From: Oceanicaulis alexandrii DSM 11625
GTDB taxonomy: Bacteria; Pseudomonadota; Alphaproteobacteria; Caulobacterales; Maricaulaceae
Direction: 5' to 3'
Assembly (NCBI RefSeq): GCF_000420265.1
Contig: NZ_ATUP01000002.1
Span: 126,501-190,500 of the forward strand
DNA: 64,000 bases
Shown here: positions 40,431-45,397 of the stretch, one piece after another
Layout: each line of letters opens with the position of its first letter
Position numbering within the stretch: position 1 is the stretch's first letter
The notes under the pieces: model-generated
Databases searched by the model: none
What the model was told of the DNA's origin: nothing
What the model saw: only the letters and a program-made list of their open reading frames with translations
Position numbers and translations under genes: made by a program

Positions 40431-40478
40431 TCTGATCCGACGTTGAGTCAGATGACGATCCTGAGGGAGGCCTTCGCC

Positions 40479-41468
40479 ATGAAACATGCCGCTCTGGCGC
40501 TTGTGATCGCACTTGCGGGCGCATCGCCCTTGGCCGCTCAGGATGCGGGGGGGCAAGCGCCGTCCTTTGACAGCGGGTTGCGCCTGTCAGGCCCGTGGGC
40601 GATCGGACCGCGTCTGGATCAGGCTCGGGCTGGATTGTCCGCCACGGTGCTGGACGGTCGGATTTACGCCGCTGGCGGCGCCGGCCTCGCAAACCCGCGT
40701 GACGCCCTGGAAGTCTATGACCCTGAAAGCGGCGCCTGGCGCGTGCTCAAGCCCCTGCCTGTGGGCCTGGAGCGTTTCGGCATGGCGGTTCTGCACGGCA
40801 AGATCTACGTGGCGGGCGGCTATTCGTCCGAAGCCGGCGCGGAGCCGATTGATCAGGTCTGGTCCTATGACCCCGAGACCGATGCATGGAGCGCAGAGAC
40901 GGCGCTGCCCGGCGCCAAGGCCAGCCTGTCGCTGGTTGCTGTGAATGATCAACTGTACGCTCTGGGCGGCGAGGACGGCGCGCCGGGCCTGTTTGTTTAT
41001 GATCCCGAGGCGCAGAGCTGGAACGCTGCGGAAGCGCCTGACGAGATCAATCGTCGGGGCGCGGCGGCGGTCGTGCTCGATGATGAAATCTGGCTGATCG
41101 GCGGCGCCCGCAACGGGCAGGCGACATCGCGCGTGGATGTTTACCATACACTGTCTCAAACCTGGCGCCGTGGTCCGGATTTGCCTGAACCGCGGGCCGG
41201 CCATGCCGCGGCCGCGCTGGACGGCGATCTTCATGTTTTTGGCGGACGCAGCGCTGACATGCGCCGAACTCTGGCCAGCCACATCACGCTCAGCGCCGGT
41301 TCCGAGAGCTGGAACAGCCTGTCTGACATGCCCGCCGCCCGTACGGAGGCAGGGGTGGTCAGCGTTAACGGCGCGATCTGGTTAATTGGCGGCGGATCAG
41401 GCGCAGGCTTCTTTGCGCCCTTTACCGCTCTGGACGCGGTGGACATTTTCTCAGCCTCAGAGCGCTGA
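40479..41468 (+). CDS. Exported Kelch-repeat beta-propeller protein
   Basis: A 329-residue protein with a signal peptide (MKHAALALVIALAGASPLAA) and five to six Kelch repeats of about 47 residues. Each has a paired glycine and a spaced Tyr/Trp pattern: IYAAGGAGL, IYVAGGYSSEAG, LYALGGEDG, IWLIGGARNG, LHVFGGRSAD, IWLIGGGSG. Such propellers serve as binding scaffolds, and some related proteins are NanM-like mutarotases. GGGAGG precedes the ATG. It lies between mgtE and spmX, and the candidate sigma-54 site of spmX begins one base after its stop. Ligand unknown. Confidence 0.82.
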   Translation: MKHAALALVIALAGASPLAAQDAGGQAPSFDSGLRLSGPWAIGPRLDQARAGLSATVLDGRIYAAGGAGLANPRDALEVYDPESGAWRVLKPLPVGLERFGMAVLHGKIYVAGGYSSEAGAEPIDQVWSYDPETDAWSAETALPGAKASLSLVAVNDQLYALGGEDGAPGLFVYDPEAQSWNAAEAPDEINRRGAAAVVLDDEIWLIGGARNGQATSRVDVYHTLSQTWRRGPDLPEPRAGHAAAALDGDLHVFGGRSADMRRTLASHITLSAGSESWNSLSDMPAARTEAGVVSVNGAIWLIGGGSGAGFFAPFTALDAVDIFSASER

Positions 41469-41484
41469 CGGTCCTGAGTTTGCA
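41469..41484 (+). promoter_or_regulatory. Candidate sigma-54 promoter of spmX
   Basis: The sequence CGGTCCTGAGTTTGCA has GG at 41470-41471 and GC at 41482-41483, exactly the -24/-12 spacing. It has a perfect TTGCA downstream half, but its upstream half matches TGGCACG only at GG and one C. The inferred start near 41495 would leave a 36-base leader before the ATG at 41531. In Caulobacter spmX is activated by TacA with sigma-54, which makes this placement meaningful. Confidence 0.45.
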
Positions 41485-41530
41485 TCGCGCTTCTTGACTG
41501 AAGATCCAACCGTTTCGAAACGGGACAGCG

Positions 41531-43462
41531 ATGACACCGCGTTTGAAATCGACCCGCGCCGCGCGCGACCTGATCAAGGCTCACGAGCCCTTCCTGGCGG
41601 AGGCTGAACGGCGTGGTAAACGCTGGACGGTCGGGTATGGCCATACGGCTTCCGCGAAGGAAGGCGTCACGCTGAAGCCTGAAGACGCCGACCTTCTGCT
41701 GATCTATGACGTGATGCGCGCCGAACAGGCCATCGACGCCAGCGTTGGCGCAGAGATGGCGGCGCCGATGCGCGATGCGCTGGTGTCCTTCGCCCTCTCG
41801 GTGGGCTTGCGGGCGTTCAAGGTGTCAGACGTCGCGCGTCTGGCGCGAGCCGGTCGTCATCGTGACGCCGCAGCCGCCATCGAGACCTGGGTGCGTGCGG
41901 ATCAGGATGGCCGGCTGGTCGTATCCGATCGTCTGGTCACCCGCCGCGCCGCTGAAAAGGCGCTCTATCTGTCCGGGCTGGAAGACAGCGCGGCGCATGT
42001 GGATGCGCCGTCTGTGGCTTCCGAACCTGAGCCTCAGCCTGAGCCTGAGCCTGAGCCTGCATCCGGTGCGGACTCAGAACACTCGACCGATACGCCTGCT
42101 GAAGCGCCGGTTGCTGAACCTGCGCCGTCTCAGCTGGCGGATGAACAGCCCGAGCCCGAGCCCGAGCCTGAGGCCGAGCCTCTTGCCGAAGCGGAAGCCG
42201 AATCCGGGCCTGAGCCTGAAGAGCAGGAGGCCTCGTCTGGATGGGTTGAGCTCGATATTGCTTTTGAAACGCCGGACGAGGAAGTGGCGGTTGAGAGCCT
42301 TGTAGAGCCTGACTCTGATGCGCCGGACAACGACGCGCAAGCAGACGAGCTGGACGCTGAATCCGAGGCGGTTGGGCCTGAGACGGTTGAGCCTGAGACG
42401 GTTGAGGCGGAGGCGTCAGACGCCGAACCTGTTGAAACTCAGGCGCTCAGCGAACCTGCTGAAGAATCCGAGCAGATTGATGCTGCGCCAGACGCGCCTG
42501 AGACAATGGACGCGCCTGAGGCTGATGACGCTCAGCCTGATCTGGATGCGGTGAAACAGGCGCAGGACGCCTCCATCGCCGCTGTCATGGCGCGCATGGC
42601 CCAGCAGGTTTCCGCCAGCATTGCGCCACCGGCGGCTGAGGCAACGGAGTCCGACGCCTCCGTCAAGTTGGGCTACAGTTTCCTGTCGACAGCGCATGTG
42701 GAGCTCGCCGCGCAGTCCGCGCCCCGTATCGCGCCTCAGCCTGCTCAACCCGAGACGCCACAACAAGGCGCGCCGTCAAAACCGCGCAGCCTGTTCAGCA
42801 GCCCCGCCGTGCCGATGGGGCCGTATCATGGCGCCTTGCAGGTCTCTTCCATCAAAGTGACCGCGATTGCGCCTGAAGCGCTCCCGCAGGGCTCTGACGC
42901 GGAAGACGCTGAAGCCGGCGAGGACGCGCAAAGTGTTCAGGCCGCTGCGCAATTGTCGGATTCAGATGATGTGATTTCGGTTGAAGCGCCCACTGATGAA
43001 GAGTCTTCGCCCGAAGCGCTGACAAGCTCACATGAGGCGACGAACGACGCCCAGGTCTTCTCTGCACCGCCGCATCCTGCGCTTGCGCCTGCGTCTGCAG
43101 CGGGTCTGTCCGGCGATGTCGAAGGCCCAGATCACCCTGACAAGGGTGATGAAGACCCCCATCACGACCTTCATGAAGACAGCGAAGAGCTCGATCCGAC
43201 GGTTGTGGCGGGTACGGAAGCGCCTGCGGCGCTCGAAGCCGAGCCGGCGCAGTCCAAGGGCGGGGATGTGATGTTCATCTCCTCGCTGGCTGTGGGCGGC
43301 GCCATGGTGGGGCTGGGCGGCTGGGATATAGCCGCGAACATGGACGCGTACATGGAATTGGGGCTGTCCTACTCGCCGTTGGGGCCGATCGTGTTCGGCG
43401 CCGGCGTGCTGCTGAGCGCGGCTTCGGCCTGGTTCATTATCGGTCGCCGCAACGAGAAGTAG
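41531..43462 (+). CDS. spmX: SpmX-like polarity protein (muramidase-fold domain, acidic linker, two C-terminal membrane helices)
   Basis: A 643-residue protein. Residues 1-151 form a GH24 (phage-lysozyme-like) domain with [12 protein letters not shown]-type start, WTVGYGHT and a final [13 protein letters not shown]. Residues of about 155-575 are an intrinsically disordered linker very rich in Glu, Pro, Ala and Asp with Pro-Glu repeats. Two membrane helices lie near 580-598 and 617-637. This is the domain order of Caulobacter SpmX, which localises DivJ and binds PopZ at the old pole. The lysozyme Glu is kept (Glu19), but no Asp occupies the canonical second position before Thr33. Muramidase activity is therefore doubtful, as expected for a repurposed lysozyme. 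The linker is much longer than in Caulobacter, as I recall it. Confidence 0.85.
42021..42180 (+). repeat. Hexanucleotide GAGCCT/GAGCCC runs encoding Pro-Glu repeats in spmX
   Basis: Two clusters of tandem hexamers lie in the linker coding region. One at about 42027-42059 is built of GAGCCT units, with one CAGCCT unit near its start. One at about 42146-42180 has CCCGAG units passing into CCTGAG and GCCGAG. They encode Pro-Glu dipeptide runs. Their in-frame six-base period would let the linker change length by replication slippage without a frameshift. Confidence 0.8.
42376..42405 (+). repeat. Perfect 15-bp tandem duplication in spmX
   Basis: GCCTGAGACGGTTGA occurs twice in a row at 42376-42390 and 42391-42405, encoding the repeated peptide PETVE within the acidic linker. 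The perfect identity suggests a recent in-frame duplication. Confidence 0.85.
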
Positions 43463-43532: not shown

Positions 43533-44705
43533 ATGATTTCGAACCAGTATCCTTCGCTCGAGTTCCCTCTGGGCGACACCGCGGACATGCTGCGCGATAC
43601 CGTGCAGTCGTTCGCGTCCGATCATATCGCTCCGCGCGCCGCTGAAATTGACGCCAAGGACGAGTTTCCCGCCGACCTCTGGACCAAGATGGGTGAACTG
43701 GGCCTGCTGGGCCTGACCGTCGAGGAAGAGTATGGCGGCTCGGGCTTGGGCTATACCGAGCACTGTATCGTCATGGAGGAGATCTCACGGGCCAGCGCGT
43801 CTGTGGGCCTCAGCTATGGCGCGCACTCCAATCTGTGCGTCAACCAGATCCGGCTGAACGGGTCTGAAGCGCAAAAGCAGAAATACCTGCCCAAGCTGAT
43901 CTCCGGCGAGCATGTGGGCGCGCTGGCCATGTCTGAACCCGGCGCGGGCTCTGACGTGGTCTCCATGCGTCTGAAAGCCGTGAAAAAGGGCGATCACTAC
44001 GTCCTGAACGGCAACAAGATGTGGATCACCAACGGCCCGAGCGCGGATACCCTCGTGGTGTACGCCAAGACCGATCCCGAAGCGGGCTCCAAGGGCATCA
44101 CCGCCTTCCTGATCGAGAAGGACATGAAGGGCTTCTCTGTCGCCCAGAAGCTCGACAAGCTGGGCATGCGCGGCTCTGAAACCGGCGAGCTGGTGTTTGA
44201 AGACTGCGAAGTCCCTGAAGAGAACGTGCTGGGCCAGATCGGCGGCGGCGTGCGCGTTCTGATGAGCGGGCTCGATTATGAGCGCTCGGTGCTGGCGGCG
44301 GGCCCTGTGGGCATCATGCAGGCCTGTCTCGACGTGGTCATGCCCTATGTTCACGAGCGCAAACAGTTCGGCCAGCCCATCGGCGAGTTTCAGCTGATCC
44401 AGGGCAAAATCGCGGACATGTACACGCGCATGAACGCCAGCCGCGCCTATGTCTATGCGGTGGCCCAGGCGTGCGACGCCAAGAAGACCACCCGTCAGGA
44501 CGCAGCGGGCGCCATCCTGTTCGCCGCGGAAGCGGCGACCCAGTGCGCGCTCGACGCCATCCAGATCCTGGGCGGCAATGGCTATATCAACGAATATCCG
44601 ACGGGCCGCCTGCTGCGCGACGCCAAGCTCTACGAGATCGGCGCCGGCACCAGCGAAGTGCGCCGCATGCTGATCGGCCGCGAGCTGTTCAACGCAACCC
44701 GCTAA
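43533..44705 (+). CDS. liuA: Isovaleryl-CoA dehydrogenase
   Basis: A 390-residue FAD-dependent acyl-CoA dehydrogenase that oxidises isovaleryl-CoA to 3-methylcrotonyl-CoA in leucine catabolism. Signatures are [19 protein letters not shown] (FAD region), [19 protein letters not shown], and the late-chain motif [20 protein letters not shown]. The catalytic base is Glu250 in [14 protein letters not shown], the position specific to isovaleryl-CoA dehydrogenases rather than the common C-terminal Glu. There is no ribosome site, and the promoter seems to start at the ATG. An intrinsic terminator follows. mccB, liuC and mccA lie further right. Confidence 0.93.
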
Positions 44706-44926: not shown

Positions 44927-45397
44927 ATGCTGATTGAAATTCTCGCCCTGACGCTGGCTTTAAGCGCGCAGAAGTCTCCGCCTGTGGAAGCCTCGCCTGA
45001 CGAAGCGCGCCTGAACGCCTGTCTGGCGCAGGCGGAGTTCGCCGAGAGCTGCATCGGCGCGGTGTCCAACGCCTGTCAGGAAGATCCGGGCGGGTATACG
45101 ACCTATGGCATGATGGAATGCGAGCGTCGTGAGAACGAGCTGTGGGATCAGCGCCTGAATGCGGCGTACTCCCGGATGCGCGAGGTGATGCTGGAGCGCG
45201 AGATGCAGGCCCGGCGAGACGCCTTGCTGGCGGCGCAACGGCTTTGGTTGCAATACCGGGACGCCGAGTGTGAACAGCGTGGGCTGGCCTATGAAGGCGG
45301 CACCATGAGGGGCGTGGTTCATAATTCGTGCTTCAGCGGCTTCACGGCGCGCCGCGCTTTGGAGCTGGAAAGCCAGCTTCAAGAGCTGTCGCTCTAG
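44927..45397 (+). CDS. LprI-like (DUF1311) exported protein
   Basis: A 156-residue protein with a short hydrophobic N-terminus (MLIEILALTLALSA). The C-terminal DUF1311/LprI domain contains ENELWDQRLNAAYSRMREVM, RRDALLAAQRLWLQYRDAEC and a final CFSGFTARRALELESQL. LprI in mycobacteria inhibits host lysozyme; most family members are uncharacterised. Cysteines at regular spacing (ACLAQ, SCIGAV, ACQED, MECER, AECEQ, SCFSG) could form disulfides. AAAGGA precedes the ATG. It is bracketed by terminators on both sides, so it forms its own transcription unit. Confidence 0.82.
   Translation: MLIEILALTLALSAQKSPPVEASPDEARLNACLAQAEFAESCIGAVSNACQEDPGGYTTYGMMECERRENELWDQRLNAAYSRMREVMLEREMQARRDALLAAQRLWLQYRDAECEQRGLAYEGGTMRGVVHNSCFSGFTARRALELESQLQELSL

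Follow-up and report, generated by a model that had tools for sequence, protein, structure and literature searches.

The gene at 41531..43462 of the window (the whole 64,000-nt stretch of Oceanicaulis alexandrii DSM 11625 DNA that was analysed) is, as the best explanation of the evidence as a whole, very probably an spmX orthologue, whose product would by analogy be a scaffold at the cell pole, anchored in the membrane and without hydrolytic activity, that links PopZ with DivJ. It is an ordinary SpmX: the two oddities highlighted in a preliminary description of the locus turn out to be a norm of the family (the missing catalytic Asp) and an upper-range value (the length of the linker). What is new here is a set of conserved islands in the linkers of this group and a conserved 17-bp leader element upstream of the gene, both recognised by sequence comparison.

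The open reading frame (ORF) has an ATG start and encodes 643 amino acids (aa); like all window features described below, it lies on the + strand. Its assignment draws on Pfam, a PDB search, a tree and Foldseek. The layout claimed earlier (lysozyme-fold domain, acidic Pro-rich linker, two membrane helices) is borne out by Pfam, hydropathy and AlphaFold. The lysozyme-fold (phage lysozyme) domain covers residues 1-149 (41531..41977) and is defined by the Pfam match, the match to PDB entry 6h9d, alignments and AlphaFold; PF00959, phage lysozyme, is the one Pfam domain of the protein (residues 29-142, E 1.7e-21). The disordered acidic Pro-rich linker, residues 150-579 (41978..43267), was delimited by hydropathy and composition: its 430 aa include 105 Asp/Glu, 9 Lys/Arg and 55 Pro, with a net charge of -96. 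Residues 580-643 (43268..43459) comprise two predicted transmembrane segments (580-598 and 620-638 by hydropathy; AlphaFold helices 578-602 and 617-642) and a short tail. The AlphaFold model of the whole protein, built from an 18-row alignment, has a mean pLDDT of 60.8 and a pTM of 0.40: the lysozyme domain (pLDDT of at least 89 at residues 11-120 and 131-150, with 63 and 68 in the other two blocks) and the membrane helices are confident, and the linker is mostly below 50.

Length and conserved islands of the linker

The linker had been described as about 420 residues long, longer than that of Caulobacter, and exceptional. The first two statements hold: its length is 430 aa by hydropathy and approximately 419 aa if counted from AlphaFold helix 133-158 to helix 578-602, about twice the ~200 aa reported for the disordered region of Caulobacter SpmX (PMC8849385). 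Exceptional length is rejected, as 16/107 sampled linkers are longer (maximum 635 aa; the sample leaves out L019 and L182, which are cut by an end, and L050) and, among the matches listed, the open frame exceeds the window's 654 in 18 of the 130 matching family genomes. The window value is thus high within a wide natural spread. Linkers in its own family have a median of 307.5 aa (n=76, range 156-635), and the medians of the other families sampled are 217 aa in f2 (n=11; probably Caulobacteraceae, see below), 205.5 aa in f3 (n=12), 128 aa in f156 (n=5) and 90 aa in f157 (n=3). Family f3 is probably Hyphomonadaceae, as its rows cluster in the tree with those of a named Hirschia, a member of that family, and genus g13 is probably Maricaulis. 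Within the genus of the window gene, linkers span 264-430 aa, and of the 14 matching genus members listed the window has the longest frame. Across the whole sample (f157 included), linkers range from 83 to 635 aa, with acidic composition mostly retained.

A linker alignment of 23 close relatives (window included) reveals conserved islands. In the group of Oceanicaulis, Glycocaulis, Marinicauda and Woodsholea, up to four ordered islands are found between fast-changing acidic spacers: island A at residues 236-249 (42236..42277), island B at residues 344-364 (42560..42622), island C (LGYSFL) at residues 376-386 (42656..42688) and island D at residues 511-575 (43061..43255), each defined by alignment and pattern counts. 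The patterns of A and B each match in 18 of these 23 relatives, that of C in 13 and that of D in 20. Where two or more islands occur, the order A-B-C-D is constant while their positions shift by hundreds of residues. In the family, the pattern of island B is found in 24/76 linkers (0.8 by shuffling), that of C in 13/76 (0.0) and that of D in 20/76 (0.2), and none of the three is found in the 31 linkers from outside the family. The island A pattern is weak by itself, with 38/76 in the family against 15.6 in shuffled linkers, and 1/31 outside against approximately 3.8.

The closest named relatives fetched were Oceanicaulis sp. HTCC2633 (92-93% domain identity) and MMSF_3324 (91-92%). Identities to these two are, respectively, 64/71% for island A, 86/81% for B, 86/71% for C and 74/66% for D, figures that are inflated by relatedness; the lysozyme domain is at 93/92% and the spacers at 23-48%, with many gaps. 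Per-island dN/dS values were too noisy to carry weight. Island B coincides with the single isolated helix that AlphaFold predicts inside the linker (338-364; pLDDT 79 over 341-360), and the case for this island as a putative helical element rests on its conservation and on that predicted helix. The Caulobacter linker is described in PMC5347347 as otherwise disordered, with a predicted helix. A reading of island B as an unusually long Pro/Gly-free run was unsupported (29 vs 25.1 by shuffling, p 0.23).

A different reading of the linker is that the protein is an SpmX orthologue in which the expanded region has acquired a lineage-specific job, such as stalk placement or the recruitment of peptidoglycan-synthesis proteins. 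Its precedent is Asticcacaulis, where the intermediate region of SpmX is reported to be expanded by more than 370 aa and the expanded region or the membrane part to bear a new stalk-positioning role (PMC4460556), and the absence of islands B, C and D from the 31 linkers sampled outside the family counts in its favour. Against this, the same-genus linkers of 264-430 aa mostly have an identical island set, so length tracks no obvious new module, and the extra length sits in the quickly diverging spacers. We consider a lineage-specific job unlikely. That a long linker might alter PopZ interaction or condensate behaviour in a lineage with different stalk or polarity biology, as suggested in the preliminary description, is a conjecture; lengths already differ from 264 to 430 aa inside this one genus, and published work places PopZ binding in the lysozyme-like domain (PMC5347347). 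Under the preferred reading, an ordinary polar scaffold, the extra length over Caulobacter lies mainly in the fast-changing acidic spacers and most likely would tune reach and valence, not provide a new function.

Catalytic site of the lysozyme-fold domain

Active GH24 enzymes have the catalytic spacing Glu, 8 aa, Asp or Cys, 5 aa, Thr. In the window SpmX, Glu19 and Thr33 are both present and residues 14-51 are without any Asp; realignment therefore cannot supply the catalytic Asp, and an alignment that places one in the catalytic position is ruled out. The Glu-Asp/Cys-Thr set of an active GH24 lysozyme or phage endolysin is incomplete for want of the Asp. Alignments show the group around Oceanicaulis, Glycocaulis and Marinicauda to be one residue shorter at this site.

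The preliminary description had read these residues correctly, but the missing Asp that it highlighted is rejected as a distinguishing mark of this gene: 105/110 Caulobacterales SpmX domains, hand-picked from the matches to cover genera and not a random sample, are likewise without Asp at the site. It is also absent from 6h9d, in which a Leu is aligned there, and its loss is therefore a family trait. Glu19 is kept in 109/110 of these domains. Asp is found in L028, L121, L128, L147 and L169, a number (5 in 110) that may be no more than expected at a free site, and the complete Glu-Asp-Thr set in 2/110 (L028 and L128). Both of the latter are from genus g8 and are nested within a mostly Asp-less clade, so that a regain is possible on the sequence evidence. 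Related lysozymes of the class have Asp (11/24) or Cys (10/24) at the site, 21/24 together; these 24 controls exclude L057, an SpmX from the same genome as L169.

Hydrolysis of peptidoglycan was considered unlikely in the preliminary description. This agrees with the sequence and with PMC5347347, in which lysozyme activity of Caulobacter SpmX is reported as not detected in vitro, but it is a property of the family and not of this gene. Could the domain nevertheless be a working muramidase, with another acid replacing the Asp? Glu19 is almost always kept, the predicted fold appears intact, and Glu24 and Glu26 are close by. However, the stretch around the site is devoid of Asp and the aligned position is a deletion, no activity of Caulobacter SpmX is reported to have been detected in vitro and its Glu19 mutants to be disturbed in localisation and in assembly/oligomerisation (PMC5347347), and Randich et al. 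2019 speak of detoxification of a phage lysin in their title. A working muramidase is accordingly very improbable.

Relationship to SpmX proteins and phage lysozymes

The identification as SpmX made in the preliminary description is sustained by the 6h9d matches, the tree, the promoter and the 3' neighbouring gene. PDB entry 6h9d represents the muramidase domain of an Asticcacaulis SpmX (also given in PMC11476376). It is the best match both by sequence (8.5e-28; the next match, at 6.2e-10, is 18 orders of magnitude weaker) and in Foldseek (1.3e-11; next entry 6.5e-9). In VIA-align, 6et6 (an Acinetobacter prophage muramidase; Z 19.4) and the PHAb11 hydrolase 9kbs (19.2) rank above 6h9d, which is third (18.2), so that fold alone cannot tell SpmX and phage lysins apart. 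The tree can: a branch with 100/99 support divides 107/110 SpmX rows from 24 lysozymes and three f157 rows, and the window SpmX is located deep inside the SpmX clade, beside HTCC2633 and MMSF_3324. Row L057, labelled as a lysozyme, sits inside SpmX in this tree. A grouping of the gene with phage lysins is rejected by the same branch.

The features by which an SpmX is recognised were thus found in the protein and its locus: an N-terminal phage-lysozyme-fold domain nearest SpmX (PF00959; 6h9d by sequence and Foldseek), an acidic Pro-rich disordered intermediate region (composition, pLDDT), two predicted C-terminal transmembrane helices, a place in the tree inside SpmX and away from other lysozymes, and a context (acyl-CoA dehydrogenase, sigma54-type promoter) common to the spmX genes of other families. 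That the gene is instead a domesticated phage endolysin or transfer-agent lysin, not SpmX by descent and merely similar in layout, has a negligible probability: it matches PHROG endolysin families (phrog_7, 1.2e-25) and, below cut-off, the transfer-agent endolysin model NF058676 (55.1 of 315 bits), and control lysozymes can approach the layout (L062, 1/24, has two C-terminal membrane segments and a 43-aa linker; L058 has one membrane segment after 97 aa), but the tree, promoter and 3' gene all place it in SpmX and largely refute this origin.

The SpmX-domain alignment was matched in 290/298 Caulobacterales genomes, with one match in the genome of the window gene. The NCBIfam model NF051871 (LysLocSpmX equivalog) has a cut-off of 700 bits that the window gene does not reach (110.6 and 113 bits). 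This cut-off was passed by only 1/60 order genomes and the Caulobacter vibrioides control, and it is therefore treated as narrow; it looks like a full-length Caulobacter model, and the window gene is not filed under it. The probable assignment of f2 to Caulobacteraceae follows from the same result, as f2 contains the only passing order genome besides the control. Among the literature matches listed, no study of SpmX in Oceanicaulis or Maricaulis was found.

Two groups stand apart. The f157 proteins L186, L187 and L188 resemble SpmX and have membrane segments, but are short (323-325 aa, with a linker of 83-90 aa); they fall outside the main SpmX clade and are without the sigma54-type promoter pattern and the acyl-CoA dehydrogenase neighbour; most f157 genomes have several matches each, among the matches listed. 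Four near-complete genomes of 2.8-2.9 Mb in f2 (G595, G623, G701 and G709, genus g289) have no SpmX-domain match, and g289 members with a match are 3.1-4.9 Mb (nine among the matches listed). This absence may be an instance of the dimorphic-trait loss that PMC12700997 reports for P. immobile.

The closest known system is SpmX of Caulobacter (crescentus/vibrioides), the DivJ localisation factor, for which PMC5347347 reports the same Glu19 lysozyme-like domain, acidic Pro-rich linker and two C-terminal membrane helices. The window locus also resembles those of the Caulobacter-related f2 in its sigma54-type promoter (10/11 f2 loci) and downstream acyl-CoA dehydrogenase (8/11), with PopZ present. 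It differs from Caulobacter SpmX in its linker (~430 vs ~200 aa; PMC8849385) and in having one residue fewer at the Asp site, and islands B, C and D are absent from the 11 f2 linkers. SpmX of Asticcacaulis excentricus (6h9d) is the best sequence and Foldseek match and is likewise Asp-less, from a genus with an expanded linker (PMC4460556); however, domain identity is approximately 40%, and stalk positioning is reported for the Asticcacaulis protein. P22-type (GH24) phage lysozymes share the fold (P22 lysozyme 2anv, Z 16.4; 6et6, Z 19.4) and the catalytic Glu and Thr, whereas the window SpmX is without the catalytic Asp/Cys, is membrane-anchored behind a long linker and belongs to a separate clade.

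Upstream region, neighbouring genes and proposed role

A sigma54-type promoter pattern, GG-N8-TTGC, is located at 41470..41483, 61 nt 5' of the spmX start codon. The same pattern is found 5' of spmX in 101/108 loci (one of 109 was left out, having less than 85 nt upstream), compared with 3.4 expected from letter shuffles: 76/76 in the family of the window gene (mostly 58-65 nt before the start), 10/11 in f2, 12/12 in f3, 3/6 in f156 and 0/3 in f157. RpoN is encoded in the same genome as the window gene. In Caulobacter, spmX is reported to be regulated by TacA (PMC7010744), and sigma54-dependent genes to be under TacA control (PMC10274813). The presence of this promoter in four of five sampled families (in one of them at 3/6 loci) suggests that timed expression of spmX is ancient.

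Between promoter and start codon lies a 17-bp leader element (41511..41527) of dyad-like 6-5-6 form, found by expectation-maximisation (EM) motif and pattern searches. Its family form, ccGTctCGgAAcGGgACA, has 17.3 bits over 76 loci (log-likelihood 698.6 vs 50-58 in three shuffles), and a related form, cTGTcTCAaaacGGG, is common to f2, f3 and f156 (12.9 bits, 25 loci; log-likelihood 162.8 vs 50-53 in shuffles); shared descent inflates these scores, and EM was started more often on the real loci than on the shuffles. The window copy overlaps CCGTTTCGAAACGG, a perfect palindrome of 14 bp at 41510-41523. As a genome-wide operator it is rejected, since the strict pattern has six matches in the genome, fewer than the 13 for a reversed-pattern control. 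One of the five non-spmX matches (L218) is preceded by GG-N8-TTGC at 116 nt and followed by an ATG at 16 nt, and appears by eye to lie within a coding region; the remaining four have no such promoter. Since no further copy in the genome was convincingly tied to a promoter, no regulon was found. The element may bind an activator or a repressor, or may belong to the ribosome-binding region; that it is a TacA site is a guess, and a narrow literature search found nothing on a TacA binding motif in Caulobacter.

Just 5' of the promoter, a Kelch-repeat protein gene ends (40473-41468). This gene is found in 21 loci (19 genomes), including all 18 named upstream-flanked loci (L032-L049). Downstream, an acyl-CoA dehydrogenase gene (43533..44705) is a frequent 3' neighbour of spmX: comparison of loci identified it in 50/98 (L182 included among the named loci), in every case on the spmX strand, starting 31-118 nt after spmX in 46 loci and approximately 800-1300 nt after it in four. 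Matches occur in f1, f2 (8/11), f3 (4/12) and f156 (2/5), with 0/3 in f157. In 45/98 loci with at least 600 nt of downstream room, f157 among them, there was no acyl-CoA dehydrogenase match, and a patatin gene occupies the downstream place in some loci. L041 and L125 come from a single genome: the dehydrogenase follows 1298 nt on in L041, and L125 has no match.

Several lysozyme-related genes were observed besides spmX. The second gene 3' of spmX encodes an LprI-family lysozyme inhibitor (44927-45397; PF07007, 5.3e-22); a small protein gene in L210 (5804-6304) lies at a comparable place and looks similar by eye, with no tblastn match at 1e-6. L210:902-3736 (945 aa) and L212:2217-4163 (649 aa) encode a caspase-like domain fused to tandem phage-lysozyme domains, PF00656 being matched at 1.4e-10 in the L210 protein and falling just under cut-off in the L212 protein. 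By eye, the caspase Cys seems absent and one lysozyme domain has Glu-Asp-Thr. Large second lysozyme frames of 658-961 aa were found in at least 11 family genomes, at least five of them within approximately 11 kb of spmX. The genome of the window gene has no second match to the SpmX lysozyme domain.

The role proposed for the window protein derives from the functions of its homologues and from the presence of a PopZ gene (DUF2497, 87.9 bits) in the same genome. A TacA-like sigma54 activator would time spmX expression at the swarmer-to-stalked transition, and the two membrane helices would anchor SpmX with its lysozyme domain and linker facing the cytoplasm. By analogy, the disarmed lysozyme domain would bind the PopZ matrix at the pole, as PMC5347347 reports for the lysozyme-like domain of Caulobacter SpmX, and would not cleave peptidoglycan. 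With its multivalent acidic spacers and the predicted helix of island B, the linker may aid self-association and concentrate the DivJ kinase. Oligomerisation of Caulobacter SpmX is reported to need the Pro-rich region (PMC5347347), and its disordered region of ~200 aa to interact with DivJ and promote condensates (PMC8849385), with the lysozyme domain also contributing to DivJ binding (PMC5347347, PMC8849385). DivJ localisation is also reported to require SpmX in Hyphomonas neptunium (PMC7200025).

We tentatively advance a joint proposal that goes further and is less likely than not: that the linker in this clade is modular, with docking sites in the constant order A-B-C-D, a helix in B that drives self-assembly and acidic spacers of free length, and that across Caulobacterales spmX expression is controlled by an undescribed operator or translational element located 3' of the sigma54 promoter and 5' of the start codon. 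The single gene adds little, being the expected SpmX of its lineage, and comparison across relatives is more useful: loss of the catalytic Asp is near-universal among the sampled SpmX proteins, and the four islands are defined targets for studying how a bacterial condensate scaffold may recruit its clients.
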